Below, one piece after another: positions 1,504 to 51,665 of a stretch of 64,000 nucleotides of DNA (position 1 is its first letter; each line of letters opens with the position of its first letter). Source of the stretch: Heterotrichella gracilis (Eukaryota > Sar > Xanthophyceae > Tribonematales > Xanthonemataceae); assembly GCA_032358255.1 (NCBI GenBank), contig JAULBX010002335.1:1-64000 (forward strand), written 5' to 3'. A program made the position numbers and the translations under genes. Below the pieces are notes generated by a model that saw only the letters and a program-made list of their open reading frames with translations, was not told the origin of the DNA and ran no database searches.

Positions 1504-4500
1504 TCACGATTGCAGGGCCACAAACACCGCCTCACCCAGGGGTTGCTGACCTTCCCTGCTTGCGTCGCCACCCTTGAGTGCCACCAGGGAAACCCCATCC
1601 AGCAACACGCGCCGGGCGGCAACTGACTCCTTGGCAGCCAGCCCTGCAGCCGGTGCAACAGCGGGTGTAGCATACATGTTGTAGGCGAAGCTGGACCCAA
1701 AGATGCCGTCAGCCACCACGTAGTCGAGGGTGTCTCCGGTGACCACGTGTGCGCCGTTGATCACTGGCAGGGAGCGCGCGTGGCCGTGCTGCCATGTCTG
1801 GCCCAACACGCCGTGCATGTCGATGACCGGGCTGCAGAGGAGAGGGAGGCTGGGTTAGAAATCATCACTGGGAGCAGGAAATGGTCACATGCATTACAGC
1901 AAAGAAAGGGTGGCTGCCATTCTTAAACATCATAGCAGGAATAACAAAATAATGTTCTTATCCAGGATAAGGAAGACAGGACCGGCATTCAGCAGCACGC
2001 CCTTACTCAACCCTAAGCTGTCGATCCTGACAGCAGGAATCCCTAAACCCTACAGCCTAAAACCACAAACCCTAGGTGCAGCAGCATGCCCTTACTGCAT
2101 GCGGAAGGGCAAGTGCACCACAGCGGCCTGGGAGGATGCGCCTGCACAGCATAGACCCTAAGCCCTAATACCTGCATGCACCTGGTTGTGCGCTCACCCA
2201 ATTCTCTCCAGAAGCAAACGCATGGTACCACATGAACCTTAGATGATGGCATGCAGGCATAGCTTCAAATTGGTTTATATTTGACTTGCGCATTTACAAC
2301 TGCTAAATAAATGTTTTGATTTATCAGGCTGAGGGTTTCGGTTCTTTGCACGTCCTCACCTTTCGCTCTCCATGACCGACACATTCACGTCCAGGTAGTC
2401 AGTGCCCTTCTCGCTCACAATGCGGAAGCGCAGCTCGGGCATGTCCACCACCAGGGCAGCACCGCTTGCGCGGACCTCCTTGCGCACCACGATGTTGTCG
2501 CTGTACTTGCGCAGGGTCATGGGCTGGCCGGGCATGAGGTAGGCGGTCACGTCCATGTTGTTAATGTACACTGGGGAGTGGGAGAAAAGGGGGTCAGGGG
2601 AGGGGAGGGGAGGTGGGCGAGGAGAGGGCAGATGGTGATAGGGAGGAACAAGCTCTTGTGAGACTATTGCGCCGTGGAACATGTCAGCTGGGCAGCACAT
2701 CAAGGCGTTAGGGTTATGTGTAGGGTTAGGTTTTTTGTGTTGCATTTTCTGAAATGTGGTGCCAGCTGGGCAGCGCATCACTGACAACAGGAGGACATGT
2801 GGGTGTTTTGCTTACCTCCAATCTTGCCATCCCCCCTTGCCTCAATGGCGATCTGCACCTTGCCGTGCACCAGGCCAATGAGGGTCATGTAGTTGTTCAT
2901 GACCTCGGTGTTGCCCAGGTTGGAGAAGAGCGCGTTGAGCTGGTAGCGGGGCTCGGTCAGCAGGTTGAACACCTTGTCGGGCAGGCCGGGGAAGTCAAAC
3001 CAGCGGCCATCAAAGCCGTTGATGTGGGGGTCGCCAAAGCCGCCACCAGAGTTGCCGCCTCCTTTGGGGCCGGGGGCAGCGTAAGGGGGTGGTGAAGGAT
3101 TGACTGGAAGGGTGGGTGATGGGGAGCTGGTGACAATGGGCGGTGGGGAGTTGGCGACGGCGGGTGGTGGGGGGTTGACAACGGCGGGTGGTGGGGACTT
3201 GTTAACGCCACCACCGGAGGGGAGGCCTGGTGGTGGTGATGCTACAGTGGCTGGTGGTGGTGATGCTGCGGAGGCTGGTGGCGGTGATGCTGTGGTGGCT
3301 GGTGGTGGAGACTTCAAGTTGCCTCCACCACCAGAGGGGAGGCCTGGTGGTGGTGATGCTGTAACAACCACTGGCGGCGGTGACGCTGTAGTAGTGGGTG
3401 GTGGGGATGCCTTCACAAGGGGCGGCGGTGATGCTGTGACCACAACAGCGGGTGGCGGTGATGCCTTCACAGTGGGTGGTGGTGATGCGCCTGGAGGGGG
3501 TGGGCTCTCCGACTCAAGTACCACTTTCTTCCCGTCTGGCACACCGCACTTCCAGTTGGGGGCGAAGTAGCCTGGCGGCGTGAGGGGGGAGACGTAGGCG
3601 TAGTCGTGGTCGTTGATTGGTGGGCGGGGAACGGGGTAGGGGTCGGATGTGTAGATCCAGCACTCCTGCAAGCAGCGTGGGAAGGGGTGCTTGTCAGTAA
3701 CGTGTGTGATGCCAAGATGGTTGCTGTTCGCATGCAAGGGCTATGCTGCGGTTCATTGGGAGACATGTAAAGGGCAGAGAACACTCAACACTAAGGGAAC
3801 AAGCACTGTTTGAAACTAGCCATAGAAGACCAGATACGCATACATCCCCTTAAAAGTGGGCTTGGCAACAGTGCCCCAGCTACAAGCAACCTTCCAGTCC
3901 AAGAGGGGAGGGGTCGAGGAAGACAACCCAGGTACTTAGCGTGAGGTTTTCACCTTCAACACACCTTTTCGTTCTGCGCAGAGTCTTCTTGATTTCCCTT
4001 GCCTGCCGACTCGAGGTAGTTCCAGAACTTGCAGCCAGCGGTGGCGGTGCAGGTGTCGCAGCAGTCGCCCCAGTTTCCGCTGCCGTATTTTGCCTGCTTG
4101 TCTTTGCCGTCCCATGCCCACGCCAGGGTGCCCCGCTCACTGGTCTTGGAGGCACAGTGCCACCGGGCAGTGAAGTCGCAGGCGCCTGTGGAACAACAGA
4201 ACCACCACATCAGCAACCTTGTACCAAGCGTTTCAGCTCTATTTATACTCGCATTATACTCGCAACCCAGAGACCTCTAGCAATGGGGAGCCTGTTGCTC
4301 TTCCTAGTCAACTTGCACCTTTGACCAGGCATGAGTTGATGGTAACAGCTAAAGCTAGCTACCTCGTCGACGGGCAAAGAGTGCAAGGCAGTGGTGAACG
4401 ACGCCACTGGCCGCACTGAATGAGAAACAAGTGGAAGGCAACGCTCAGCATCAACTGGTCAGTTTGCACCAGTTGCTAATATGGAATCTGAAACACCGGG

Positions 4501-7474: not shown

Positions 7475-10165
7475 TCACGATTGCAGGGCCACAAACACCG
7501 CCTCACCCAGAGGCTTCTGACCCTCCCTGCTCACACGATCTGCCTCGGTGCCAGTGATTGCCACCAAAGAAATCCCGTCCAGCAGCACGCGACGGGCGGC
7601 AACCGACTCCTTGGCAGTATCAGCCGGTGCAGCATACATGTTGTAGACAAAGCTGGATCCAAAAATGCCGTCGGCCACCACATAGTCGAGGGTATCGCCG
7701 GTGACCACGTGTGCGCCGTTGATCACTGGCAGGGAGCGGGCGTGGCCCTGATGCCATGTCTGGCCCAGCACGCCGTGCATGTCGATGGCGGGGCTGCGCA
7801 GGGAGGAGGGAGGGGGTTAGGCAATGGCAGATTATGGCAGGCATTGGTCACATGGGTCACAGCAATGAGGTGGTGGGTGCAGCTGTGAGTAACAGCAACA
7901 TTATTGTGCCTCGATTTCCCCTTCCAAGAAAATAGTCTTAGCATGGAGACAGGATTGGCATGCAGCAGCATGCCCTCACTCAATCCTAAACCCTGACAAA
8001 TTCATCTTCTTATGAGTCATAATAAATTCATTAAACATCTTTCAGCACAATTAAATTCCAAGTTCATTTTAATTTCTCAGTGATTTCAACAAAATGTAAG
8101 TTTTTCAGCATGTCCTCACCTTTCGCTCTCCATGACTGAGACATTCACGTCCAGGTAGTCGTTGCCCTGGTCGCTCACAATGCGGAAGCGCAGCTCGGGT
8201 GTGTCCACAACCACAGCAGCACCAGTGGTGCGCACCTCCTTGCGAACCACGATGTCATCGCTGTACTTGCGCAGGGTCATGGGCTGGCCGGGCATGAGAT
8301 AGGCTGTCACGTCCATGTTGTTGATGTACACTGCGGGTGGGGGAGAGAGGATGTGGGGTCAGGGGCGGGGAATGGAGGAGATGCGTGGGAAAAGGGTGGC
8401 TTACGTGATGATGCTAGGGCACGGTGGAGGGTTTTCACATATTGGGTTGGCAATAATGGTAGCCAGACATTGGGACCACGGGTGTAGGGTTGGGGTGCCT
8501 CTGCGCCATGGACCATCAAGGTGTTCAGGGTTTGAGGTTATGTCTAGGGTTCTGGGTTTTGTGTTGAGGGTTTTCATTGGTGGGTTGCCAACTGGGGAGC
8601 GCATCGTGGATAACAGGGGGGCATGTGGTGTTGTGCTCACCTCCAATCTCGCCATCCCCCCTGGCCTCAATGGCGATCTGCACCTTGCCGTGCACAATGC
8701 CGATAAGGGTCATGTAGTTGTTCATGACCTCGGTGTTGCCCAGGTTGGAGAAGAGCGCGTTGAGCTGGTAGCGGGGCTCGGTCAGCAGGTTGAACACCTT
8801 GTCGGGCAGGCCGGGGAAGTCAAACCAGCGGCCATCAAAGCCATTGATGTGGGGGTCGCCAAAGCTGCCACCAGAGTTGCCACCTCCCTTGGGGGCGGGG
8901 GCGGAGTAAGGGGATGGCGAGGCCTTGGCTGGAGGGGGGGACTTAGAAGTGCCTCCACCGGAGGGGAGGCCTGGTGGTGGGGACTTGGTGCTGCTGCCAC
9001 CACCTGAGGGGAGGCCTGGAGGTGGGGATGCTACAGCGACGGGGGATGGTGGGGATGGGGTGGTTTCGAGGACCACTTTCTGCCCGTCTGGCACGCCGCA
9101 CTTCCAGTTGGGGGCAAAGTAGCCTGGTGGTGTGAGGGGGGAGACGTAGGCGTAGTCATGGTCGTTGATTGGTGGGCGCGGCACTGGGTAGGGGTCGGAC
9201 TTGTAGATCCAGCACTCCTGCAGTATGGAAAGGGGTACTGGTCAGTAACATGGGTGATGGCAGAGATGGTTGCTGTCCACAGGCAAGGGTTGCATTAGGG
9301 TTTGCAGACAAGTGTTGAATTAGGTTCTTAAACCCTAAACCCTAACAAATAGTTGCTATTCAAGGAAAGGTCTATGCTGAGGTTTCAGTGGATGTAAAGG
9401 GTCAAGTGGCATACGATATTTATTACAAAGGAAACAAGCACTGATTGAAAATAGCAGTGGAAGACCAGATACGTATACATTCCCTTTCCCTTGCCCCATG
9501 TACAAGCACACTTCCAGCCCAACCCCTTGCTGGCCCTGTTGGGCTGGAAGCCAATCCAGGTCGCTAGCCTTCACGTTTAACACACCTTTTCATTCTGCGC
9601 AGAGTCTTCTTTCTGCCCCTTGCCTGCCGACTCCAGGTAGTTCCAGAACTTGCAGCCAGCGGTGGCGGTGCAGGTGTCGCAGCAGTCTCCCCAGTTTCCG
9701 CTGCCGTATTCTGCCTGCTTGTCCTGGCCGTCCCAGGCCCACGCCAGGGTGCCCCGCTCACTTGTCTCGGAGGCGCAGTGCCACCGGGCAGTGAAGTCGC
9801 AGGCGCCTGTGAACAAGAAACAGCATATCAGTAACCCTGCACCAAGCGTTTCAGACTTCACTTGACTGGCAACAGTTGACACACTGCGGAGGTTCCTACC
9901 CCTACATATAAGTATATGGACTTTGACGAGGCAATAAGTACTTCAAGACGCACTGGGACCGTGCTGGAACAAAAAAAGCCACAGGCAACTTCGAGTATCA
10001 GCTGTTCAACGTGCACGTAGGTTCCACAAGGTTCTGCAACACCCATGCTAGCTACAGCCAGCCAGCTACAGGGTGGTCATAGTGCGCACCTCCCGCGGAA
10101 GCCCCTTGCAGCGCAGCCGCTAGCAGCACACCCAGAAGGGCGACTGCCATAGGTACACGCGCCAT
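7475..10165 (-). CDS. VWD2: secreted apple/PAN-like, Pro-rich, root-cap/vWD-like protein
   Basis: Five exons: 10165-10090, 9806-9586, 9217-8641, 8330-8120 and 7793-7475. They total 1404 nt, in frame, 467 aa. The order matches VWD1: signal peptide (MARVPMAVALLGVLL), apple/PAN-like module (GDCCDTCTATAGCKFWNY), ECWIY segment, a shorter (SPPP)n linker, then FGDPHINGFDGRWFDF and MHGVLGQTW. The main difference from VWD1 is contraction of the Pro-rich linker. The frame is open 28 codons upstream but without an ATG (only GTG), so the ATG at 10165 before the signal peptide is the start. All splice sites are canonical and no lesion is visible. With VWD1 it forms a same-strand tandem duplicate about 5.5-6 kb apart. 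Function unknown; secretion inferred. Confidence 0.88.
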
Positions 10166-11992: not shown

Positions 11993-14900
11993 TCACTCCC
12001 GGCGCACCCGTTTTTTGTCATGCTCAAGGTACTCCCGCTGGTAGGCCCTGTCGGTGACTGCCCCAGTGCCAACGGCCTCAGGTTCCCTCCCGCTCCGCCC
12101 CACGGGCCCGCCCCGCGCGGCGCCAACTGGCGCTGGTCGGCTGCGCCGGGAGCCTGGGTGGTCCCGATCGTAGTACAAGTCCTCCACATACCTGCGCCAC
12201 ACACGCTCCCTGCGTGACACAAAGTAAGGGTCAAGGTTAGGGTTTAGGGTGCACCCGGGTGTCAAGCAAGCAAACCGGTGGCATGTACAGGGTACTTCAG
12301 CTGGCCGCACCCTGCTCAAGCGGGTCATAGTTTCGGGCGCATTGCGCATTGCCCAGAAGGGCTTGGGGTTTAGGATTAAGGGCTGGGTTTCAGGTGTAGT
12401 CTTCAAGGTAAATAGCCCTACCCCCAGCCCACCCACTTTGCCTCTTCAGGGCACATGGCCTGCTCCGCTGCACCGCCTACTGTGCAGGGCTTAGGGTACC
12501 CCCCAGAGGTGTGCGCATCCCCTTACCCTACTCACACCGCACAGAGTACCCGCCTACCCAGGCCTACACCCCTCCTGCCCACCCACCTCTCCCCCTCGGG
12601 GCACCGCCCTAGCCGCACATCATCCCCCGCAAGCGTATCGGCCTGTGCAAATGAGGACAGGGCACCGGGTCGCTCCGCCCCCTGTGCCGGTAGCAGCGGC
12701 CGCAGAACCTGATCCACGGAAAAAACAGATTAAAATTTCAATAAAGGTTTCTCACAAAAGCCCAACAGCGGGTCGTCAAAGAATACAAACACAATACATT
12801 TCAACAGTTTTAAAAACAAGATGCGGTGTAACCTGGGAATGCAAGAACGTGCAATAACTTGTTAACGAGTGCAGGCATGCCTGTAAGAACGTCAATATAG
12901 ACATCTGAGCAGCAGCTTGGCCTTGAATATGCCCCTTGGTGAGGGAGGGAGGGTGCCCATGAAACCCCAGCTAAGGGTCACTAGTACCAGGTGAATGAGG
13001 AGGTTTTGGCACAGAGGAGGGCATCGCAGTCCTTCCCCTACATCCCTGCAATGTACCTTCAAGGGGAATAGATAGGACTACTCGAGTCACCCAGGTACCC
13101 TGTCTACCACCTCCCCTCAACCTAAAAACCCTGCTTCCCCTGCCAGTTAGGGTCTAGCCACACCCTAGAAACCCTAGCCTCACCGTGAAAACCCTACGTC
13201 CCCTGCCATTACCTGGTCCAGCACCTCCCTTAGCCCTGCATGCGCCTTCTCCATCAGACCAGCCACATGGTCCCTAAACAGATGCTCCGGCTCGCCTGGC
13301 TCAAGGGCAGGGTTGCTGGCTCGATTCTGCGGGACAGGTGTTCACTTTGTTGTAAACGGGAGGTGGGTGGTGCACAGTTGTGTATTGAAGGTTGGGCAAC
13401 CGGGGGTGAATGCAGCATAACATGCGTGTGGCAAAACAAGTACCCTAAACCCTCGATTCCACGTCTCCCCAAACCCCACCCCCATCCTTTCAAATTGGGG
13501 ACTTGGCACCTCCCAAATCCACATAATTGTTGGGACCCTCTGCCCATCCCCGCGCCCCTGACCTGTGGGTTGCGCATGCGCCTATCCTAGAGTCAAAATA
13601 AAACCCTAAACCCCAAACCCTAAACAGCAGGAGATTCCCCACTTGCCCCTCACCTGCGGGTCGCGCATGAGCCTGTCCTTGTAGTCCCTCCAGTTGGCGC
13701 CAGGGTCCCTCACTAGCTCACCCAGCAGCGCCTGGAACCCTGCCAGGGCCTCGCCATGCGCAGCCTTGCGCCTGAGGAAAGAGTGTGTGTGGTCAGTGTG
13801 GGAACATCGCCAGTGTGGCACTGAGGCATTCTATAAATGCCTCCCCAAATCCTAAAGGCTATCGATGGGAAGGCTTCCGGCCTTTGAACAGCATGACAAC
13901 CCTGTCTCAAACCATAATCACGAACCGCATCCTCCACTGCCACCTCCTAGGAGTTACAGAACCAGGCATGCAGCCGCCACTGGCGCCGCCGCCCACCCTC
14001 CTCAAATTCCTGTCTCAAAACCCTAAACCCTTACCTGCGCCCCGCGGCCTCTTCCTCCACCGCGCGAGCAGCCGCCACCTGGCGCCGCCGCTCACCCTCC
14101 TCGCGCCTCCGGGCCTCATCAGCAGCCTGCAGGGTTGTGGTATCCACATTAGGGTACTGGCTAGGGTTTTCACACAGGGGACTGGCTAGAGCTCGTCGGC
14201 GGGGTGTTTCCACCTCAGGGTGGGGGGGGGGCTAGTGTTCCTCCTTAGGGTACTGGCTAGAGTTGTGAGCCGGGTCACAATCGTAGCATGCCATACTAGG
14301 GTTTCCACCATAGGGTGATGCAATAGGGCTCAGCACAGGGTATCGCTGGGCTGGGCTTGCTAGCAGGACTTGCCCGCAGGCCCTTCCCCGGTGTGTGCTG
14401 CTTGGGATTCTTGCCAAGGGGTTTGTCATTCCACTGCAGGACAACCCTCGGCACGCACGTCAACAGCCCAAACCCTAGCACAGGGTTTCACCTGCAGCTC
14501 CGCCACAAACGCCCTGAACAGCTTCTCCCTGTTTTCCCTCTTCACCCCCTTGTAGCGGGGATCCTTGGCAAGCGCGTCCTTGGTTTTGGACCACCGCGCA
14601 TCCCCACCCACGCCATGGTCCTTCAGCAGCTGCCTGTGGGGATCAGGGACAGGGCTGTATGGGGATGCGGGATTTGACTTCGGGATTATGATATAGGGCG
14701 TTGCATGGGTGGCTCCCCCAGCTGCCGAAGAAGAAAAAGAATACGAATACGAGTAAGGACTACCGTACACCCAGGAGCTGCGGGGATCATGGCTACGTTG
14801 GGGACAGGTTCTGGACGCAATGGGAAATTGGAGATACGATTCCCACAGGGCTTTATGTGCGTTGAAGATGAAATTAAGAAGTAACAATGGTAGGGTCCCA

Positions 14901-17900
14901 CCACCAACACAACAACATACAATAAGAGATAAATGGTCACAACAGCTTCAACCCACACCTATATTCGTCCTCAGCCTTGGTTGCTGCTTGCTCAGCCTCT
15001 TTTGCCGCCTGGAGCCGCAGGGGGGCAACCATTTTCTGGAAAACCTGGTCCCGGACTTTGGGGTCACAGGCCTGCCAGCGGGGATCCCCGCTGCACTGCT
15101 CCTCTAAGGTTTCTAGTGTGACTGCAGGGTCCCGCAGGGGGTTGGGCTTGGGGCGGTGTTCAATTGCCTCTCCCTCTTCGTTGTCTTCCACAGCCTCCCC
15201 TGGAAGCGGGAACAGGTTCAAGGTGTATCAGAATGGGGTTAATGCATTAAGCGGGATGTTCAAAGACTATGTATGTGAAGTGATGCTTGTTGGTAGAGCA
15301 ACAGTTGACAAAAACCCTTCCGATGCAACCAAATGTCAAAGGGAGACCTGTGGCACACCCACCACATCATCCATCGCACACAAAACCCTCTTCCTAGGGT
15401 ATCCCCACCTACCTGGCAACCCCGCTGCCGCCACCTCCTCCAGCAAAACCCTAAACCCTTCCGCCCCCTGGCCCTCCCCCTCCTCCGGAGGCGCCTGCGC
15501 CTTGCTCCCATCTTTCGCCTTCTTCACCCCCTTGTCTGCCAGTGCAGCAGACCTGCAGCAGTGGTGCCATCTTTGTTAATTACCCAAATTTGGCGAAACG
15601 TCTATAAAATACAAAACACCTCTGGGTGCCCCTTTCGGTCAGAAAACGAGGATTTTGGGTTTTTCTGCCGCGGAAAAGGCCACATAACGAGCGATCTAAC
15701 GAATACACAGGGCCGATTGGGTCCTTTTTCGTTTGCACTAACCAACATGTGATATAAAGATGGCACCACTGACCTGCAGTAGTCATCGAACAGCGCCCTC
15801 CTTTCCTTCATGTTAGCCACAGCCTGGTACCTCTCGTCAGTGATGAGCTTGGGGAGCTCACGCTCCCACCTGGAAAAGGGGGTCACCTGCGCAGCGCAGG
15901 AAAACCCTAAAACCCTAAGCCCGGAGTTCCCCACCACTGCAGAGATTATATAGGCAGTGCCAGTACAGGGCTGATTGGCGCAAGGCATGTAGGATTGACT
16001 GCTAATCTGGCTTTATTGCTTTATTATGCATGCAAGTAAGTGATGGGCACCCCCACAACCGCAAACCCTACATCCTAGGAAGGAGTGGCTAATGGCCTTC
16101 TCCTTTGCGTTTGCCTCTGCCTGGTACCGCTCATCACACCAATCTAAACTGGCCAACCGCGTGTCATTATGACACTCATCCCAGCCATTCCACACCCGGT
16201 GCTGGTAAGGACAACAACGTTGTTGTCATAAAAAAGTCGGAACATTAAAGGGTTTGCAATTACAGCAAAGCAAAATTCGCACCCCTTTCTCCTTCAGCAG
16301 CTCCTTGAACGCATCCCCAACATGCATCCCCACCCTCGCGGGCCGCACCGCACCCCCCATGCCGGGCGCCACAGCCACCACCATAGGGCGGTGGAGCGGC
16401 ACCCCCACACCCCCCACCGCACGCGGCCCCGGGGGCCAGGCTCCGGGGGGTGGGTGGGCGTGGGGTGCGGTGGCGGTGGCGGTGGTGGTGGCTGGCATGA
16501 TGTCATCCATGCTGAAGCTGACATCATCGGTGTCGCCCAGATCATCGATGATGGTGTCATCTGGGGGTGGGAATAAGGTGGAGTTGGGTGGGGGTCCGGG
16601 TGGTTTGGTGATGAACGGAAGGGGGGGGGGGAGTACGAAGACGGCGCATACGAACCCATCCTTTACTTGCGTGGCGCTGTCACAATGCTCGTCAAATCCC
16701 CGGTACAGCTTTTCTACCCGCAATATCGGTGTTTCCTACCAGAACATAGTACCATCACCACCACCACCATCACCACCATTGACACAGTTTCCTCCACCCC
16801 CCCCGCCACCCCCCTGAAACCCACAACCATGCATTTGCAATGGCGCACATGTGACCAAGCAGGGGGTGGTCCCATGTATCAGGCCTACCTCGTAGGTCGG
16901 GCCTTAGGATGGCGTCATGCCCCGACGCCTTCATGCGTTTCACGATGGCCTGGGCTGCAGCGGTGAGGACAGGCTCCTGCGCAGCACGGGTTTTAGGGTT
17001 CAAATTAGGGTTTCAGGTTTAAAAAGGCTGCGTGGCTTGAGCTGCAGGGGTGAGGGCAGGCTCCTGCGCAGCAAGGGTTTTAGGGTTCAAATTAGGGTTT
17101 CAGGTTTTAGAAGGCTGCGTGGCTTGAGCTGCAGGGGTGAGGGCAGGCTCCTGCGCAGCAAGGGTTTTAGGGTTCAAATTAGGGTTTCAGGTTTTAGAAG
17201 GCTGCGTGGCTTGAGCTGCAGGGGTGAGGGCAGGCTCCTGCGCAGCAAGGGTTTTAGGGTTCAAATTAGGGTTTCAGGTTTTAGAAGGCTGCGTGGCTTG
17301 AGCTGCAGGGGTGAGGGCAGGCTCCNNNNNNNNNNNNNNNNNNNNNNNNNNNNNNNNNNNNNNNNNNNNNNNNNNNNNNNNNNNNNNNNNNNNNNNNNNN
17401 NNNNNNNNNNNNNNNNNNNNNNNNNTAGGGTTCAAATTAGGGTTTCAGGTTTTAGAAGGCTGCGTGGCTTGAGCTGCAGGGGTGAGGGCAGGCTCCTGCG
17501 CAACAAGGGCAGGACTTACAGCGCAGCTGGGGCTTTTTTCGCATGTCGGTGGGGGGTGCAATTTGGGCTGGTTAGGGCTTTGCCGTGTGACAGGGGGGAG
17601 GGTTTACACGGGGATTGAGCTTAGTATGTGTGTCGTGTATCAAGGTATTTCCAGCCCCCAAAAAGACCCTTAGCCAGGGTGTACCTTATTGGCAAGCTGC
17701 CTGGCTTTCGCTGCAGCAACCTCCGGCGGCACCGTCCACGAGGTCTCCCCCTTCTTTTCATGATAGTAGTATTTCCGCCCATCGCTGCAGCTGACCTCCT
17801 GCCACTCGGTGCCTTTTACTGGCTCTGAACTGACGGGGGTGGGGTTGGAATGCGCCGCATTTGCGGGGTCCCCGGAAAAACCCTCGGGCTTGTCCCAGGA

Positions 17901-20174
17901 CGACTTCCCCGTGAGGGTGTTGTAATAGTACACCTGCAGCGGGATGCAGGGATTACGATGCGGCACATTTTCCGACGCGAAGGGTTTTAACCTTGGGCTT
18001 CTAATCAGTCACCTAATCACCTTCCAGCAGGACAGCCAGGCCAACACTCAGTCCTGCTCACGCTTTGCCAAGCACAATTGTCCTGCCACTGTCTGTACCG
18101 CTTGTTGATTCCTTGTGGCTCAGACTGGGTGCATGCCATGCACAGGTGCATGAGCAACGGGCAAGGTTCTGCCTCACCCACCCTCCCGGGCCATTTCCTA
18201 ACAGGGGGTTCCCCCCCGCACACCCACACGGGGCATGTGTAACATGGCTCCACCTACCTCCACCCCTTTAGGGCATGTGCAAACAGCAAGGATTCCCACC
18301 CCCACCCACCGACCTGCCTATATGCGCTCTTGTGCTCTCCACGCAGCCCGCCTCAGCCTTGGCATGAGTCTCAGCCTCACCCACCCATGTAGTGCATGCG
18401 CCCACAGCAGAAATCCACCTCATCCACCCATCTAATGCATGTGCCCACAGCACGGCGCCCCAATCACCCCTCCCGGGGTGCATGCCCAACTACCAAGGTA
18501 CCATTCCACCCACCTGCCCATCTGCGCTCTTGTGCGCAATCCAGGCAGCAGCCTCAGCCTTGGCCTGAGCCTCTGCCTCTTGCCTCCTGTGCTCCTCGGC
18601 CCGAGCACGCTCAATCTCCTCCACTATCCTCTGCTGCTGCTGCTGGTGTTGTTGTTCTTGTTGTTGCTGTTGTTGGGATGCTGCTGAGGGGTCCTGTGGT
18701 GGTGGAGCGTGTAGCGGTGGCTGGCCGTTTAGAGGCCCTGAAGGGGGGTGCTGACCTGGCGGGGCCCCTGAGTGGGGTGGCTGGCCTGGCGGGGGAGGCC
18801 CTGTGGGGCATGTTAATGGTGTTATGGATGAGTCGCAGATTGTGGTGTGCATGTTGCAAAGGTTGGAATCAACGCAGAGCTGCAGATGGGGTGCATATCA
18901 GTTTGCCACATGCGCCCAGCAGTACAGCCCTGTGAGGGCTACACTGCTCAGTACTGTGTGCAGCTTTTAGGGTTCCCTAGGGTTTACCTCCGAGGGGTTG
19001 CTGGCCAGCGGGTGGTGGTGGCCCCGGATGCATGTGGGGGCGAGGGGGGTAGGGCGCATGGGGGTGGAGCGGGTAGGGCATCATCCCCGGGGGAGAGGGG
19101 CGAGGGGCAAACTGCGGCGCCATTGGCGGACCACCTGGCAGGAAGAGAGGGGGGATGGGCATCAAGGGAGTTGGTGAGGGACAACGTACTGCACAGTTGG
19201 GGATGCGGATGTGGGGAGGGAGAAGCTTGCAAATGGCGCTTGGCAAAGACAGGTTCCGGGTTCAATCCCGGTCCATGAGGCAACCAAAAACCGAAGGCCA
19301 AGCACCGACATAGGCGAGTTGTGGCAGGAACCCTACAGCCTAAGCCCTAAAACCCTAAAATGGCGCTGCGTGCAGACCTGCCTCTAGAGGTTCTAGTGTG
19401 GTGCAGAGGGGTGGTACCATACCTTGAAGTGGGCGGGGAGGGTAGGGCATCCCTGGCGGGGGGCCGCCCATCGGGGGCCTAAAGCCTGGCGGGGGGGGTC
19501 CACCCATAGGGGGTCGCGCCCCAGGGAGGTAATGAGGAGGTGGGTAGTAAGGCGGGGCACTAGGTGGAGCCTGTGCAGGATGGAGCGGATAAGGTAAGGC
19601 TTCACAGGCAACCAATAGCATGCATGGCATCAGCGGTGGCATGCAGGTGTGACCCCAGATAACAGGCAACCAGCAGCTTGTTGCGCTACTACCAGTATAA
19701 AGCATGATACAGATTCAATAGAACCTCCCTATAGATTTCAGAAAGCATGCACTGAGGTGCCCAGCAACAGGTTGCATGCCATACACTCCTATATGCATGC
19801 ATATGCAGCTTGAACCCACCCCTGGTGGAGGCATGCCGGGGCGAAACCCAGGTGGGGGTGGCATCCCCGGGGGCCTGGGACCGGGGGGAGGTCCCTGTGG
19901 CGGCGGTGGACCTCCAGGAAACGGCGGTCGGGGGCCCTGGGGGTGTTGCTGTGGTGGGGGTTGCCCCTGACCCGAGCTGCAAAGGGGGTGCACGGTGACA
20001 TCACGTCAACCAGCAAGGAGACGGTTGGGGTGTTAACGCCTTTAAAGCCCACCGGGGCAAAGTGGGTTCTTACCTTGAAGGACCTCCGAACCCCAAGCCG
20101 TGTTTGTGCATCTGTGCTCCCGCCCCTGCCTGTCTGAGCTCTTGGTAATATGCATGCGCTTTAGCCTCCTCCAT
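11993..20174 (-). CDS. TCERG1: TCERG1/CA150-like (plant PRP40C-like) WW-FF transcription elongation and splicing factor
   Basis: Seventeen exons: 20174-20074, 19976-19820, 19570-19423, 19134-18988, 18800-18514, 17933-17685, 16976-16889, 16560-16283, 15886-15774, 15552-15413, 15199-14959, 14633-14492, 14126-14035, 13771-13654, 13326-13213, 12708-12587 and 12209-11993. They total 2754 nt, in frame, 917 aa. An upstream in-frame TAG supports the ATG. Residues 50-240 are Pro/Gly-rich and end in a poly-Gln run. WW1 is split by an intron (AAWIAHKSADGQ/VYYYNTLTGKSSWDKP); WW2 is WQEVSCSDGRKYYYHEKKG. FF repeats follow, e.g. AFKELLKEKG/VTPFSRWEREL and ARWSKTKDALAKDPRYKG, in the order of animal TCERG1. 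This nuclear family couples RNA polymerase II C-terminal-domain binding to splicing factors. The RYVEDL segment in the last exon matches the TCERG1 C-terminus. Confidence 0.88.
15559..15771. mobile_element. Introner-like TIR element forming an intron of the TCERG1-like gene
   Basis: The 213-bp element has perfect 16-bp terminal inverted repeats: CAGTGGTGCCATCTTT at 15559-15574 and its reverse complement at 15756-15771. It is flanked on both sides by the identical 8-mer ACCTGCAG (15551-15558 and 15772-15779), a target-site duplication. On the gene strand that 8-mer reads CTGCAG|GT and supplies both the donor and the acceptor. Splicing therefore restores the pre-insertion sequence exactly (codons TAC TGC AGG TCT, inside or just after FF1). 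No transposase is present, so it is non-autonomous. The 8-bp duplication and CAGTGG ends suggest a hAT-like origin, which is inference. Confidence 0.88.
16004..16203 (-). pseudogene. Relic or alternative FF-like exon in intron 8 of the TCERG1-like gene
   Basis: On the minus strand an acceptor-like CTTACCAG precedes an open segment reading HRVWNGWDECHN...CDERYQAEANAKEKA. It closely resembles ERELPKLITDERYQAVANMK of the real FF1 exon at 15886-15774. The upstream exon joins in phase to either. However, I find no GT donor here that leaves the phase needed by the next exon, while direct joining to 15886 reproduces TCERG1 FF1 cleanly. I read it as a decayed duplicate exon, possibly an alternative one. 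Confidence 0.5.
16960..17512. repeat. 87-bp intronic minisatellite containing copies of an exon start
   Basis: Repeat-unit starts (GGCTGCGTGG) occur at 17026, 17113, 17200, 17287 and 17458. The spacing is exactly 87 bp except across the assembly gap. Each unit contains TAGGGTTCAAATTAGGGTTT. On the gene strand it also carries CTGCGCAG followed by a copy of the first codons of TCERG1 exon 7 (EPALTPAAQA versus EPVLTAAAQA). The first, diverged member is the exon itself. The array is an acceptor-plus-exon-start duplication amplified in the upstream intron. Confidence 0.85.
17326..17425. other. Assembly gap (100 N)
   Basis: Exactly 100 N lie within the 87-bp tandem array. The round number indicates a placeholder, so the true repeat count is unknown. 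Confidence 0.97.
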
Positions 20175-31540: not shown

Positions 31541-34229
31541 ATGGCTCGTATTGCGGTTACGCTGCTGTTTGCGGCGTTGGCTGTGGCCACCACCCTACAG
31601 GGCGCAGCAGCAGGTGGGTTGATGCATTGCGCGCGCAGCCGCGCGGCATGCACATGCGTTGCCTGCACCCTCCTGCCAAGACCTCGAAAGGGCAACTTCG
31701 GCCCAAACTGGACCTGCGTTGCTAGCTAGCTATACTGTGCCACCACCCCTTTTGTCCTCGTCATACCCCTGGTCACCTTTGCCTAGCTAGCTCAATAGAG
31801 AGTTGGGTGCACGTGCCCACTGCTGCATGCCGTTCCGCCTCGAGGTCGTCAATGCTCTTCGCGCTTTGCTCTGTGAGCTATGTGAACGCCTAAGAAAGCT
31901 GCCAAAATCACCCTCACTAAGTTGCCTGCCTGCTGGTTCCCACTGCGACCTCCCACAAAGTGCATTTACCGGTCTGTGCGCACCCATGGGTAGCAACCCT
32001 AGCGGCGGAAACGCCAGGCGTACGCTTTGCTGATACGTTGGTTCCTGTTACAGGCACCTGCCCTTTCACCGCCCGGTGGCACTGCGCCTCAACGACGGGT
32101 GAGAGGGGTACCCTGGCGTGGGCGTGGACCGGCGCGGACAAGAAGGCGCCCTACCACAACGCAAACTTCGGTGCCTGCTGCGACACCTGCACCGCCACCC
32201 CTGGCTGCAAGTTCTGGAACTACCTCGAGTCAGCGGGCAAGGGTCAACCAGAAGACTCTCAGCAGAACGAGAAGGTGTGTGTTAGGTGTGTATTAGGTGT
32301 GTATTAGGCGAAACATCCAGGCTCGGGACCTGTACTGGTTTTCGTGTTACCCTGTTTTGCTGGCAATTTAAACCTATAATGGAGCCAAATTTGCTTACAC
32401 TTGAAGCAATTTGCAAGGATGCCAGGCGCTAGCGCTGCAAAGCTGTGCATGACACTGCATGGCACTGCGCGCATCTAGTTTGAAGTCAGTGCTTTGTTCA
32501 ACCTATTTTGTGTTTTGTCTGTTCTGTCTGGCTACCGCATGCACATGTCTTGAAAGACAGATATTTTGCTCCCTTGAAAGTCAACACAGCACCTTGCCTG
32601 CAAAATATGTATAGAACCTGTTGGCAAGCAACATGGTATTGACCATTACCCGTTTACACTGTTGCAGGAGTGCTGGATCTACACCTCCGCCCCCTACCCC
32701 GTGCCCTCCCCATGGCCACGTGGCCACCCATCAACGACCACGACTACCCCTACGTCTCTCCTACGACTCCCCCAGGCTACTTCGCTCCCAACTGGAAGTG
32801 CGGCACCCCAGCGCCCCCAACCACTCCAGGCACCCCTGGCACCCCAGGTGCCCCCGCCCCCAGTGGAGGCGGCAACTCTGGCGGCGGCTTTGGCGACCCC
32901 CACATCAATGGCTTTGATGGCCGCTGGTTTGACTTCCCCGGCCTGCCCGACAAGGTATTCAACCTGCTGACTGAGCCCCGTTACCAGCTCAACGCGCTCT
33001 TCTCCAACCTGGGCAACACCGAGGTCATGAACAACTACATGACCCTCATTGGCCTGGTGCACGGCAAGGTGCAGATAGCCATTGAGGCAAGGGGGGATGG
33101 CAAGATTGGAGGTGAGCACAACACCACATGGCCCCCTGTTGTCAGTGATGCGCTGCCTCCCTGATACTTAATTATTGCATTGTGCACTACCAGCCTTATA
33201 CCCTGATTAGGGTTGTCATGAACCAGTGCTGTCAAGCCAGTTGCAACAATTCAATTTTTATTGCCTCAGCGTAATAACCTATGCCTCACCCCACTCCACC
33301 ACTCCTCCACCCCCTCCCCTGACCCCCCACCCATTTCTCACTCGCAGTGTACATCAACAACATGGACGTCACCGCCTACCTCGTACCAGGCCAGCCCATG
33401 ACCCTGCGCAAGTTCAGTGCCGACATCGTGCTGCGCAAGGAGGTGCGCGCCACAGGTGCTGCCCTGGTGGTGGACACCCCCGAGCTGCGCTTCCGGATTG
33501 TGAGCGACCAGGGCAATGACTACCTTGATGTCAACGTGGCTGTCATGGAGAGCCAAAGGTGAGGGACATGCATCCATGTGGTGGTTTTGTCTGCATGCAT
33601 TTTCTAGAAGCCATCATGTCATGCCATGTGATGTAGTGCTGCACACCAAAAACCCTAAACCCTAAACACTCCCTGTGCATTGCTCTTTTGCAATCCTGTC
33701 CAGGGTGCTGTCCCAGGACGCCATGCATTGCTGTGTCTTGAAACCCTAAATCTAGCCCTACACTTAATTGCTAGTGCCTGTGTACTGCTGCCCTCAACCC
33801 CCGCCCCTACCCTCCCGCGCAGCCTGAACCCTAAACCCTAAACCCTAAACACCGGCCACTGCCTGACCCCCCCCCCCACCCCCCCTGCGCAGCCCCATCG
33901 TCGATATGCACGGCGTGCTGGGCCAGACTTGGTACCATGGCAAGGCGCGCTCCCTACCAGTGGTTAACGGCACACATATAGTCGCCGGCGACACCCTCGA
34001 CTACGTGGTGGCTGATGGCATCTTTGGATCCAGCTTCGCCTACAACGCCTTCATCCCCGTTGCCCCTGTGGTGGAGGCTGAGGCTAGCACTGACTCTGAG
34101 ACACCTGTGCGCCGCGCACTGGTTGAGGGCGTCCCCTTGATTGCCCTCACTGGTGCCGATGCAGGGTTTGCCACGAGGAATGGCCAGGCTGTGCGTGGTG
34201 AGGCGGTGTTCATTGCTCTGCAATCGTAG
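31541..34229 (+). pseudogene. VWD3: secreted-family paralog with a 14-bp frameshifting insertion
   Basis: Five exons: 31541-31613, 32054-32274, 32668-33111, 33348-33558 and 33893-34229. They total 1286 nt, which is 3n+2. The signal peptide (MARIAVTLLFAALAVATTLQ), apple/PAN-like module (GACCDTCTATPGCKFWNY), vWD-like exons and MHGVLGQTW end are all present with canonical splice sites. Exon 3 shifts frame after ECWIYTSAPYPVPSP. Against VWD5 it has 14 extra bases at 32712-32725, containing the perfect 12-bp palindrome GGCCACGTGGCC. Without them the coding length would be 424 codons, stop included. The linker is short and Pro/Gly-rich (GTPGTPGAPAP) rather than SPPP. Either it is a very recent pseudogene, it is spliced differently, or the insertion is an assembly error. 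Confidence 0.8.
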
Positions 34230-43344: not shown

Positions 43345-46157
43345 ATGGGTCGTCTTGCGGGGTCGCTGCTTCTCGCGGCGTTGGCTCTGGGCCTCACCCT
43401 ACAGGGCGCAGCTGCAGCTGCAGGTGGCAATGGAGGCAGTAATAATGCAGGTGGCAATGGAGGCGGTAATGCAAATAGCAATGCAGGTGGTAATGGAGGC
43501 GGTAATGGAGGAGGCGGTAATGGAGGAGGCGGTTTTGGAAGCGGAGGGAAACCACCAGCAGGAGGTGGGTTGGTGCCTTGCGGCTTGCAGTACTGCCACG
43601 ACCTTGAAACGGCAAACTCCGGGTCCAAAACCGAACCTGCACCGTCAGGGCTTAGCCCCTTGCCACAATTTTATTTTGTCAGTGTCAAGCCCCTCGTCAA
43701 CTCTGCGTACTGATTAGACGCACCCACACAATGGTGCCATTGCGCCTCGTCATGGAGTTTTGCGCTCTCTGAACCGTTCGCAGGAGTTTAGTGACGCCTG
43801 CGCACACTGTCAACGCCCTTACTGCCTGCCTGCTGGTCCCATAGTGGACTTCGCGCTCAGCGTAATCGGTATGTGAGTGGCAAGAAAAGTTGACCGTCGA
43901 AACGGTTGCGCACGGTTCGCTGATAGACGGTGCCTCTGTCCACAGCTGTCTGCCACTTCGAAGCCGCGTGGCACTGCGCCTCCTCGACGGGTGAGGGGGG
44001 TACACTAGCGTGGGCCTGGGACGGTGGCTCCAGTTCAGCCCACCATAGCGATAACTACGGCGACTGCTGCGACCAATGCACCAACACGCCTGGCTGCAAG
44101 TTCTTTAACTACCTGTCGTCAGCGGGCAAGGGCAACCCTGGAGACTCCGCACAGAACGAAAAGGTGTGTACGAGGTGAAACTTCTGGCTTCCCTGGTCCC
44201 CTCCTGGCAGGTCGCTCGTAGCCTGCGCACTATTGCTTTGCACTGGAATGGGGTGTCAACGTAGCTGGTCTTCCTTTGCTGGTTTTAACCGATGCTGCTT
44301 GCTTTGCAGTGTGTTGTATGCCCTTTTTACCCTTCACTGTCGTCCTGTGAAACTCAACACAGCCTTTGCCTATAGAGCAGTTTGCATAAGGCTTGAAACC
44401 TGTTGATAACCACCAAACCCTGTTCACAATTCGCAGGAGTGCTGGATTTACACCTCGGCCCCCTACCCCGCGCCCCGTCACCCAAGAAACGCGGTGGCAG
44501 GCTTCGGCTACGTCCCTCTGGTTAGTGCCTCCGACACCATCAATGGAAAATACAAGGCGCCAGGCTACTTTGCTCCCAACTGGAAGTGCGGCTTGCCAGC
44601 ACCCCCACCTGGCACCCCAGCCGCCCCCGCCCCCTCTGAAGGCGGCGGCTCTGGCGGCAGCTTTGGTGACCCCCACATCAACGGCTTCGATGGCCGCTGG
44701 TTTGACTTCCCCGGTCTACCCGACAAGGTGTTCAACCTGCTGACCGAGCCCCGCTACCAGCTCAATGCGCTCTTCTCCAACTTGGGCAACACTGAGGTCA
44801 TGAACAACTACATGACCCTCATTGGCCTGGTGCACGGCAAGGTGCAGATCGCCATTGAGGCCAGGGGGGATGGCAAGATTGGAGGTGAGCACAACAAGGT
44901 TGTGAACACCGCCTTTGCCCCGGTTGTCCGTGATGTGCTGCCTGGCTGGTAACACCATTGCGCTGTAGCACTTGGCTTAGAACCCTGATTAGGGTTGTCT
45001 TGAACCCTAAGTTGTCAAACCCAAGCAGGAATATATCAAGGCGCACTAGCATCATAGCTTGACACCCCCCTCCCCTCCCACCTCCTCCATCTTCCTCTCC
45101 TGACCCCCCTTCTCCCACTCCCCAGTGTACATCAACAACATGGACGTGACAGCCTACCTCATGCCCGGCCAGCCCATGACCCTGCGCAAGTACAGCGCTG
45201 GCATTGTGCTGCGCAAGGAGGTGCGCGCCACTGGTGCTGCTGTGGTGGTGGACACACCCGAGCTGCGCTTTCGCATTGTGAGCGACCAGGGCAACGACTA
45301 CTTGGACGTCAACGTGGCTGTCATGCAGAGCGAAAGGTGAGGACGTGCAATTGACTCACAATTGTTCATTGAGTACAAGAATAGTTATCAGGGTGCATTC
45401 ATGTGGGTTTCAGTATAAGATAATAATACCATATATTATCATTGATAATGATAATCAGGGTGCATTCACGTGGCTGTCATGCAGAGCAAAAGGTGAGGAC
45501 ATGCAATTCATGTGGGGGCGTTGTCTACATGCCATGATCCTGAGCACCTACGTTGGTGCAAGTGTTGGAAAATGAATAATCCCATTCATCCCCTTACCTC
45601 GAAATCTTAAACGCTAGCAATGCTGGACTGCTTGGCAATCACCTGTTCGGCAACCTGTCGCAGGACGCCATGCATTGCTGCGGTATTCACATTGAGTCTT
45701 GACTCCAAACGCCAACTCAATGCCTGTGCTGCCTGCTGCTTCTGTCACGTCATGCTGCCTACCATTGATTAAACCTAAACAGCGGCCAGTGCCTAACCCC
45801 TCCCCGACCACCGTGTGCAGTCCCATCACCGACATGCACGGCGTGCTGGGTCAGACTTGGTACCAGGGCAAGCCTCGCACCCTTCCAGTGGTCAACGGCA
45901 CACATATTGTCGCCGGAGACACCCTCGACTACGTGGTGGCTGATGGCATCTTTGGATCCGGCTTCGCCTACAACGCCTTCATCCCTGGTGTCCCTGTGGT
46001 GGAGGCTGTGGTGACCACTGGCTCTGAGAAGCCTGTGCGCCGCTCGCTGATTGAGAGTCTTCCCTTGATTGCCCTCACCAGCGCCGATGCAGGCTTTGCC
46101 ATGAGGAATGGCCAGGCTGTGCGTGGTGAGGCTGTGTTCATGGCCCTGCAATCGTAG
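43345..46157 (+). CDS. VWD4: secreted apple/PAN-like and root-cap/vWD-like protein with Gly/Asn-rich N-terminal insert
   Basis: Five exons: 43345-43564, 43946-44163, 44437-44884, 45126-45336 and 45821-46157. They total 1434 nt, in frame, 477 aa, with no lesion. After the signal peptide (MGRLAGSLLLAALALGLTLQ) exon 1 has gained about 48 codons of Gly/Asn repeat (GGNGGGNANSNAGGNGGGN...), absent from the paralogs. The apple/PAN-like module reads GDCCDQCTNTPGCKFFNYL. The segment after ECWIY differs from the other members (RHPRNAVAGFGYVPLVSASD). The vWD/root-cap part has GDPHINGFDGRWFDFPG, YINNMDVTAYLMPG and MHGVLGQTWYQ. It is the only intact family member of the three plus-strand copies. Extracellular role inferred; function unknown. 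Confidence 0.88.
45440..45500 (+). repeat. Echo of the VWD4 exon 4 end inside intron 4
   Basis: After the true donor at 45336 the intron repeats CGTGGCTGTCATGCAGAGC followed by AAAAG|GTGAGGACATGCAATT. This closely copies the exon end AACGTGGCTGTCATGCAGAG plus donor. Confidence 0.8.
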
Positions 46158-48958: not shown

Positions 48959-51665
48959 ATGGCTCGTCTTACGGTTAAGCTGCTTCTTGCGGCATTGGCT
49001 GTGGCCACCCTGCATGAAACATCAGCAAGGTGGGTTGTTGCATTGCCCGGCATGCATGCATGCCGCGTTACAAGTATGCGGCATCATGCGTTGCAACTGC
49101 CTGCACCCTGCTGCGTATGCCAAGACCTTGAAGGTGCCAACTCTGGGTCCAAGCTGAACCTGCGGTGCTAGATCTCAGACCTTACACAACCCATTTTGTC
49201 GGTGTCATACCCCTGGTCACCTTCCGCCTAGCCATGCATGGGTGCGCACTAGCTACACTAGTCCGCTGCCGAGTGCCTTCTGCAGCTGCTTCGAGCTCGG
49301 GTCTTCATGCGCTTCGCTCTTTGCTATCTGAACGCGTATGAACGCTGTCAAAATTACCCTCACTGCCTTGTCTTGCCTGCTAGCTATAGTTCCCACTGCG
49401 TTGTCATAGATGTCACACTGAGTACATTATCGGTCTGTGGGTGGCAACCATAACGGCCTTCGAAACGCTTGAAATTTGCTGATTCATGAATACGTTGGTT
49501 CCTGTTACAGGCACCTGCCCTTTCACCGCCCGGTGACACTGCGCCTCAACGACAGGGGAGAGGGGTACCCTGGCGTGGGCCTGGGACGGCGTGGACCACC
49601 ACGCACCCTACCACAACGCAAACTTCGGTAACTGCTGCAACACCTGCACCAACCACCGGTCACCGATCACCGGACTGCCAGACTGCTTGTTCTGGAACTA
49701 TCTCGAGTCAGCAGGCAAGGGTCAACCAGAAGATTCTCAGCAGACGAAAAGGTGTGTATTTAGGTCAAACCCCAGGCGCCTGCTCAGGACCTGGACTGGC
49801 TTCTGTGGTGCCCCTCTTGTGCTGGCTTTAAGCAAATTTGCTTACTCCTGAGAACGTGTCGCCAGCTCGGATTCCAGAGGCGCTGCAGCTGCAGTCTCTA
49901 TCTGGCACTGCACATATCTGGTTGCAAGTTTGGTGGCATGTTCCATTTGTTTTGTACTTGTATGTCCTGTCAGGCATCAAGTGTCTTTCTGTCCTGCCGC
50001 AAGATTCGCTGTGTAGTCCACAGCAAACCCTCTGGACTCAAATTTGAACATGCATGCATATGGTATTGACCACTACCCGTTTCCACTGTTGCAGGAGTGC
50101 TGGATCTACACCTCCACCCCCTACCCCGTGCCCTCCCCACCAATCAACGACCAGAACTACCCCTACGTCTCTCCTACGACTCCCCCAGGCTACTTTGCTC
50201 CCAACTGGAAGTGCGGCACCCCAGCGCCCCCAAGCAGCCCAGGCACCCCTGGCGCCCCAGGACCGGGGGCCCCTGGTCCCAGTGGCGGCGGCTTCGGCGA
50301 CCCCCACACCAACGGCTTTGATGGCCGCTGGTTTGATTTTCCCGGCCTGCCTGACAAGGTGTTCAACCTGCTGACCGAGCCCCGCTACCAGCTCAACGCG
50401 CTCTTCTCCAACCTGGGCAACACCGAGGTCATGAACAACTACATGACCCTCATTGGCCTGGTGCACGGCAAGGTGCAGATCGCCATTGAGGCAAGGGGGG
50501 ATGGCAAGATTGGAGGTGAGCACAACACACACATGCTACCCTACCCATGCCTGTTCACCAAGATGTGCTGCCTCCCTGATTTCAATGTGCACTACCAGCC
50601 TTCATACCCTGATTAGGGTTGTCATGGCCCAGTGCTGTCATGCCAGTTGCAACATTTTAATTGACATGTCAGGGCGCCTTAGCGTAATAAACCTATGCCC
50701 CCTCCCACTCCACCACTCCCCATCCCCTTCCCCTCACCCTCCAACCGCAGTGTACATCAACAACATGGACGTGACCGCCTACCTCCTGCCCGGCCAGCCC
50801 ATGACCCTGCGCAAGTTCAGCGCCGACATCGTGCTGCGCAAGGAGGCCCGCGCGAGTGGTGCTGCCCTGGTGGTGGACACACCCGAGCTGCGCTTCCGCA
50901 TTGTGAGCGACCAGGGCAACGACTACCTGAATGTCAACGTGGCTGTCATGCAGAGCCAAAGGTGAGGACCCGCACCCATGTGGTGGTTTTATCTGCATGC
51001 CAGTACCCTGAGCCTCTGCGCGCGCGTGGTGCAAGTGCTTGACCATGCAGTGCTGAGGAATCCCCTGGAGCACAAAATCCCTCAAAACCCTAATTTTAGA
51101 AACCCTTTTTAACGCTGTCAATGCCTTGCTGCTTGGCGACTTTCCACAGAATGCCATGCATTGCTGTGGTACTACCTGGGATATAATATATCCCAGTTTT
51201 GACTCCCAATCGCCAACTCAATGCCTGTGCCGTCTGCTGCTTTGCGCACTCCGCTCCCCCATACCATTGGCCAACTTTAAACCCTAAACAGCCGCCAATG
51301 CCTAACCCCCTCCCGACCCCCCTGCGCAGCCCCATCATCAACATGCACGGCGTGCTGGGCCAGACATGGTACCAGGGCAAGCCGCGCACCCTGCCAGTGG
51401 TCAACGGCACACACATTGTCGCCGCGACACCCTCGACTACGTTGTGCCTGACGGCATCTTCGGGTCCAACTTTGCCTACAACGCCTTCATCCCCGTTGCC
51501 CCTGTGGTGGAGGCTGAGGCTAGCACTGACTCTGAGACACCTGTGCACTGCGCACTGCTTGACAGCCTCCCCCTGGTTGCCCTCACCGCTGCCGATGCAG
51601 GCTTTGCCATGAGGAATGGCCAGGCTGTGCGCGGTGAGGCTGTGTTCATAGCCCTGCAATCGTAG
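48959..51665 (+). pseudogene. VWD5: pseudogene of the secreted family
   Basis: Five recognisable exons: 48959-49029, 49511-49751, 50095-50515, 50751-50961 and 51330-51665. Several independent lesions are visible. Exon 1 ends one base out of the family phase. Exon 2 has TGA at 49534-49536 in place of the conserved Trp codon of RWH, carries an in-frame insertion around CTNHRSPITGLPDC, and ends one base short (CAGACGAAAAG|GT). The shifted frame also stops (TAA in CGGTAACTG). Exon 5 has lost one G near 51424 (GTCGCCGCGAC versus GTCGCCGGCGAC), shifting the end of the vWD-like domain. Exons 3 and 4 are open and still encode GDPHTNGFDGRWFDFPG and YINNMDVTAYLLPG. The linker is collagen-like (PGAPGPGAPGP). 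Confidence 0.92.

Follow-up and report, generated by a model that had tools for sequence, protein, structure and literature searches.

How an intron can come to end, at both of its edges, inside the target-site duplication of a transposable element is the question raised by one locus in the window analyzed here, a stretch of 64,000 nucleotides from Heterotrichella gracilis. Very probably, a non-autonomous DNA transposon inserted in an exon, and its 8-bp duplication supplies both splice sites of the resulting intron. New introns may thus arise via a mobile element in coding sequence that is cut from the RNA at its own duplication. The case matters as an intron gain with a legible mechanism, since a single genome contains the element with its duplication, the exon that would be restored, and related copies both inside and outside genes.

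The element and the putative intron in a TCERG1-like gene

The element occupies 213 bp (15559–15771, minus strand) and has perfect 16-bp terminal inverted repeats (16/16 complementary), with CAGTGGTGCCATCTTT at 15559–15574 on the plus strand and its perfect partner at 15756–15771 on the minus strand. It lies between identical octamers, ACCTGCAG, holds no noteworthy open frame, and matches the family profile over its full length. The element's size, its terminal repeats, and the flanking octamers had been predicted from the letters of the window, and both the coordinates and the letters proved correct. The two copies of the 8-bp duplication are on the minus strand with the gene. In the upstream copy (15772–15779), CTGCAG closes the exon and GT (15773–15772) opens the intron; in the downstream copy (15551–15558), CTGCAG (15558–15553) is the 3′ end of the intron and GT (15552–15551) opens the next exon. 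A family-blind scan for identical octamer pairs enclosing 50–1500 bp and inverted repeats of 12 bp, up to 2 mismatches being allowed, covered 305,461 bases (the window and the fetched loci, overlapping loci included). It returned 10 rows, every one of them the window element or its C676 sister, with 0 rows in the reverse-only control and 1 in the complement-only control; direct rather than inverted ends were found in 190 rows. At this stringency the element is the sole such structure within the window, and the family profile run over the window gave no second match.

On the gene strand, the sequence across the element reads exon..CTGCAG|GTCAGTGG .. CACTGCTGCAG|GT..exon. Because the octamers read CTGCAG|GT on this strand, removal of a GT..AG spliceosomal intron of 221 nt (15773–15553, minus strand; start GTCAGTGG, end CACTGCTGCAG) would restore the empty site and the frame of the FF-domain gene. 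The preceding exon (15774–15869, minus strand; start placed by eye from AG) codes for the latter half of an FF domain, and the following exon (15413–15552, minus strand; end placed by eye from GT) keeps its frame after the predicted splicing. Unspliced, the window copy has stops inside the element in all three frames. The joined peptide matches Pfam FF at 3.3e-07 over residues 1–30, the joint at 31/32 lying just past the match end, and the TCERG1 structure 3hfh at 3.1e-09 over residues 1–45, gapless at that joint. The FF score goes up from 30.7 bits to 43.9 when a further downstream exon, read by eye, is added. Within the open frame 14426–14947, 55 residues form another FF domain (6.7e-10); Pfam gave no match for the upstream exons as read by eye. 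The FF-domain matches support the TCERG1-like identity that the original prediction gave the gene. Its reading of AG|GT at both ends, with the empty site and the frame recreated, is borne out by an exact joint and by a frame that is open when joined, and its view that the transposon is itself the intron fits the anatomy, with the putative GT..AG edges inside the duplication.

In the mechanism that we propose, a non-autonomous DNA transposon (terminal inverted repeats CAGTGGTGCCAT.., 8-bp target duplication) would have entered an exon of the TCERG1-like FF-domain gene at CTGCAGGT, inserted by a transposase presumably acting in trans. The duplication would place CAG|GT at both element edges, the first copy becoming the 5′ splice site, lengthened by the terminal repeat to GTCAGT, and the second the 3′ splice site. 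The spliceosome would then remove GT..AG and recreate the uninterrupted exon, and pairing of the terminal repeats in the RNA may draw the splice sites together. The predicted hairpin of the two repeats has a stability of −75.1 kcal/mol (z −4.95, with 0 of 200 shuffles equally stable), a stability that a perfect inverted repeat gives anyway.

We consider it extremely improbable that an older intron predates the transposon and that the later insertion reached both of its edges by chance. The gene does have other introns, and two relics of the family (C455 and C553) sit within apparently older introns, all as read by eye. However, the duplication itself forms both splice sites, no remnant of an older intron is found, and the identical exact fit recurs in four further genes.

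While the duplication and the terminal repeats of the window copy are flawless, its body differs by 22% from the wider family consensus, so the insertion is probably younger than most of the divergence in the family. The original prediction had read the pristine ends as recent insertion and active intron gain. The intact ends do suggest a late insertion, but the best relative is 68–69% identical; present activity is not supported, since identity to the closest relatives is only about 70% and genome searches found no near-identical copy of the window element.

Elsewhere in the window, the frames 2778–3740, 8525–9241, 32643–33164, 44410–44952, and 50017–50616 have FGDPH.NGFDGRWFDFPGLPDKVFNLLTEPRYQLNALFSN in common and constitute a local group of related genes, proline-rich in part.

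Copies in other coding genes

Five copies lie in coding genes: the window copy (C26) and those on contigs C676, C63, C8, and C564. The octamers are CCCCAGGT on both sides in C676, TACCAGGT/CCCCAGGT in C63, GTGCAGGT/GCGCAGGT in C8, and, on the element strand, CGGACCTG/CGCACCTG in C564, where the gene strand reads CAG|GT. In every case the duplication contains AG|GT, and removal of GT..AG leaves one open frame across the joint; with the element left in, each has stops in all three frames. The terminal repeat extends the donor to GTCAGT in four of the five. C63 looks to be an older insertion, its ends and duplication having decayed.

The genes of the four further copies are, in the order given, of the topoisomerase 3-beta type, of the DEAH splicing-helicase type, an oxidoreductase, and a glycosyltransferase, the last two by weak matches. 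In comparisons with the PDB, the joined protein of the first matches topoisomerase 3-beta at 2.2e-39, gapless at the joint, and that of the second matches DEAH splicing helicases at 6.5e-27, also gapless at the joint, with small gaps some residues off. The third matches Pyr_redox_2 (pyridine-nucleotide oxidoreductase) at 1.6e-4 and 21.7 bits, below the cut-off of 26.1, and has no match in the PDB. The fourth matches Glyco_transf_34 at 3.9e-4 and 20.7 bits, below the cut-off of 23, and its best PDB hit (E 0.97) is meaningless. The copy on C80, with CAGGTCAG on both sides, is a candidate sixth, though its joined frame gave no coding match. At about 183–300 of that locus (L085), the element start and the CAGGTCAG octamer occur twice, 94 bp apart, as if the 5′ splice-site end had been duplicated locally.

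C26, C676, C63, and C564 have a common body, and these similar sequences fill the inferred introns of four unrelated genes up to the splice edges, as is expected of introners; C564 is oriented opposite to the other three relative to its gene. The body of C8 has no match to the family profile and only its ends are common to the family, so that C8 is a family mate by its ends only. At the level of sequence, these data establish the anatomy, the family, its recurrence in coding genes, and the exact restoration of the frame on predicted removal.

Splicing is predicted here from sequence. If the element stayed in some or all transcripts, it would disrupt the gene or act as a poison exon instead of being a clean intron, and the stops found in each of its three frames would fit that reading. 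Against such retention, which we regard as very unlikely, five conserved genes have such insertions with their frames intact on both sides, and copies with decayed ends (C63) are among them, as expected for tolerated introns.

The family across the genome and its insertion sites

The original prediction expected other copies in the genome, and about 25 relatives were indeed found by homology, with 8-bp duplications scored and both ends present in 15. We searched the host genome (68.5 Mb) with several queries. The window element matched C676 and C63 at 68 and 69% identity, and a consensus built from the three sequences had 19 matches. A wider consensus, to which the body of the window copy is 78% identical, gave 26; a 437-bp copy gave 13; and the 20-base left end with at most 3 mismatches was found at 23 places versus 3 in a reversed control. 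Merged by eye, these amount to 26 copies, spread over 25 contigs, the total falling to 25 if C4 and C389 each hold half of a single element. Fifteen copies have a duplication along with both ends, and the remaining 11 are partial or doubtful; the full copies with a duplication span 120 to 591 bp. The signs of DNA transposition, terminal inverted repeats with a target-site duplication, are seen in 14 copies, in which the two ends are present and the paired octamers differ at 0–2 positions, and additionally in C487a, where 6 of the 7 visible letters match. A second end type, CAGTGCTTACAT, occurs in C52 and C4, with altered forms on C887, C273, C903, and C723.

Patterns anchored on the splice sites extended the search. 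The donor-anchored pattern occurred at 317 places versus 128 in the control, with paired ends and a duplication in 4 of 30 fetched loci (L010 lay outside this test), and the acceptor-anchored pattern at 503 versus 162, with paired ends and a duplication in 2 of 29. Used as genome queries, L018 and L011 returned zero additional copies, and a search of a phage collection gave short matches only (E 3 to 9). An exact terminal-repeat match on C561 was set aside as degenerate and rearranged, a second end with a duplication being absent, and C30, C111, and C771 from the left-end search were judged by eye to be chance matches.

Some loci are unusual in other respects. C487:1907–2812 (L077) contains two copies of the 437-bp type nearly back to back, and a separate pair of octamers flanks each of them. 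C4:1–900 (L091) and C389:1–800 (L090) hold, respectively, the left half and the right half of an element of one type, with TGGACAAT beside each and the contig starts near, and are perhaps a single broken element. On C111, an 873-kb contig, positions 500400–501150 (L094) resemble bacterial recA when read by eye, and bacterial DNA therefore seems to be part of the assembly.

Nine copies have duplications without AGGT or ACCT (C887, C398, two on C487, C64, C52, C636, C903, and C553). The joined frames of eight of these (C487a left out) match no Pfam family above cut-off, the best E being 0.071, in a test that is weaker than that for the intronic copies, with one frame per copy and short flanks; the length of open frames did not separate coding from other insertion sites. 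Among the homology-found copies, AGGT or ACCT is present in 4 of 13 duplications versus 4.9% of window octamers (p 0.003; 3 of 12 without C80, p 0.019), an excess that is biased upward because the early queries came from intronic copies and the 19-match consensus query held duplication letters. Outside this count are the window copy (given), C8 (found through AGGT), C273 (by eye, its octamers disagree at 3 of 8 letters), C18 (60 bp, without a duplication), C4 and C389 (two halves, same octamer), and the partial copies C508, C372, C455, C312, C516, C561, and C723.

The excess, about six times background, could also reflect target choice more than selection, with a transposase that prefers AGGT-like targets and an element that is a specialized introner. 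On the gene strand, AGGT stands at the end of the octamer or, for C564 and C80, within it in three of the four AGGT copies, in the window copy, and in C8, as such a preference might produce. We consider this unlikely, however: AGGT is absent from 9 of the 13 duplications, these nine have no common motif by eye, and the copies with AGGT are those in recognizable genes. The excess agrees with a filter that would let an insertion in an exon persist if its duplication provides both splice sites. The family would land at varied octamers, and insertions in exons would last mainly where the octamer holds AG|GT, selection acting as the filter. The presence in one family of duplications with and without AG|GT makes the target-duplication model of splice-site origin testable.

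At somewhat short of an even chance, we suggest further that this is an ordinary low-copy MITE family, not specialized as an introner, which makes introns when its 8-bp duplication holds AG|GT, with no need for a splice dinucleotide borne by the element and irrespective of orientation. If so, any transposon with an 8-bp duplication is a latent intron maker, and introners are a fate of common transposons rather than a special class. The data also suggest that low-copy, diverged families add introns too, and introner surveys based on similarity may overlook such families.

Known introner systems and the transposase

Insertions of maize Ds, a TIR transposon with an 8-bp duplication, are spliced out at or near the duplication, as predicted here, whereas the Ds cases are mutant alleles and the present family consists of resident introns in several genes. 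Aureococcus introners, the subject of work by Huff et al. in 2016, reportedly have terminal inverted repeats, as does the present family. Gozashti et al. 2022 describe 548 introner families in 175 genomes (PMC9860276). In Florenciella introners, the element carries neither splice site and both are drawn from the site of insertion, as predicted for the present family, but the host and the sequence are other, and the present family is low-copy, with many copies outside recognizable coding sequence (PMC9860276). Aureococcus introners are described there as having 8-bp duplications and a similar intron size; in contrast, both splice sites are part of the element in the Aureococcus example given, and its transcript gains 12 bp, whereas in the present copies the putative sites lie in the duplication and nothing would be added (PMC9860276). 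Introner elements of Amoebophrya resemble the present family in having direct repeats over the exon/intron edges and inverted repeats capable of forming hairpins, while their direct repeats are of 3–5 nt with mostly non-canonical splice motifs, compared to 8 bp and GT..AG here (PMC7789003). Our literature search on introners, which covered articles rather than supplements (where the family may already be listed), did not find a description of it.

The original prediction suggested a hAT-like family. We regard membership of the hAT superfamily, with mobilization by a hAT transposase such as that of C875, as possible but slightly less than evenly likely. The 8-bp duplications in the family copies fit, CAGTG-type ends resemble hAT ends, and the genome has a hAT gene at C875:170358–172509 (L038–L040) with a DUF659 part and a dimerization part, the latter (C875:170400–170657) being the sole hAT-dimerization match in the genome. 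However, the hAT target motif nTnnnnAn is matched by both octamers in C636 only, 1 of 14 elements, and by one octamer only in C553. The C875 gene, moreover, has no family ends within about 10 kb, pairs of terminal repeats and duplications around it number 188 versus 179 in the control, and a second hAT gene copy is lacking at E 0.01. An autonomous transposase with the same ends, which the original prediction proposed to seek, was looked for among hAT genes, and the single gene recovered lacks such ends.

With the C875 protein as genome query, the 127 other matches are all confined to residues 1–50, which belong to a separate repeat. This repeat, of about 90 bp, lies inside the hAT gene (C875 about 171200–171320), in the intron adjoining the element (window 15955–16039, minus strand), at window 18022–18112, and at no fewer than 127 further places, many of which are the start of a contig.
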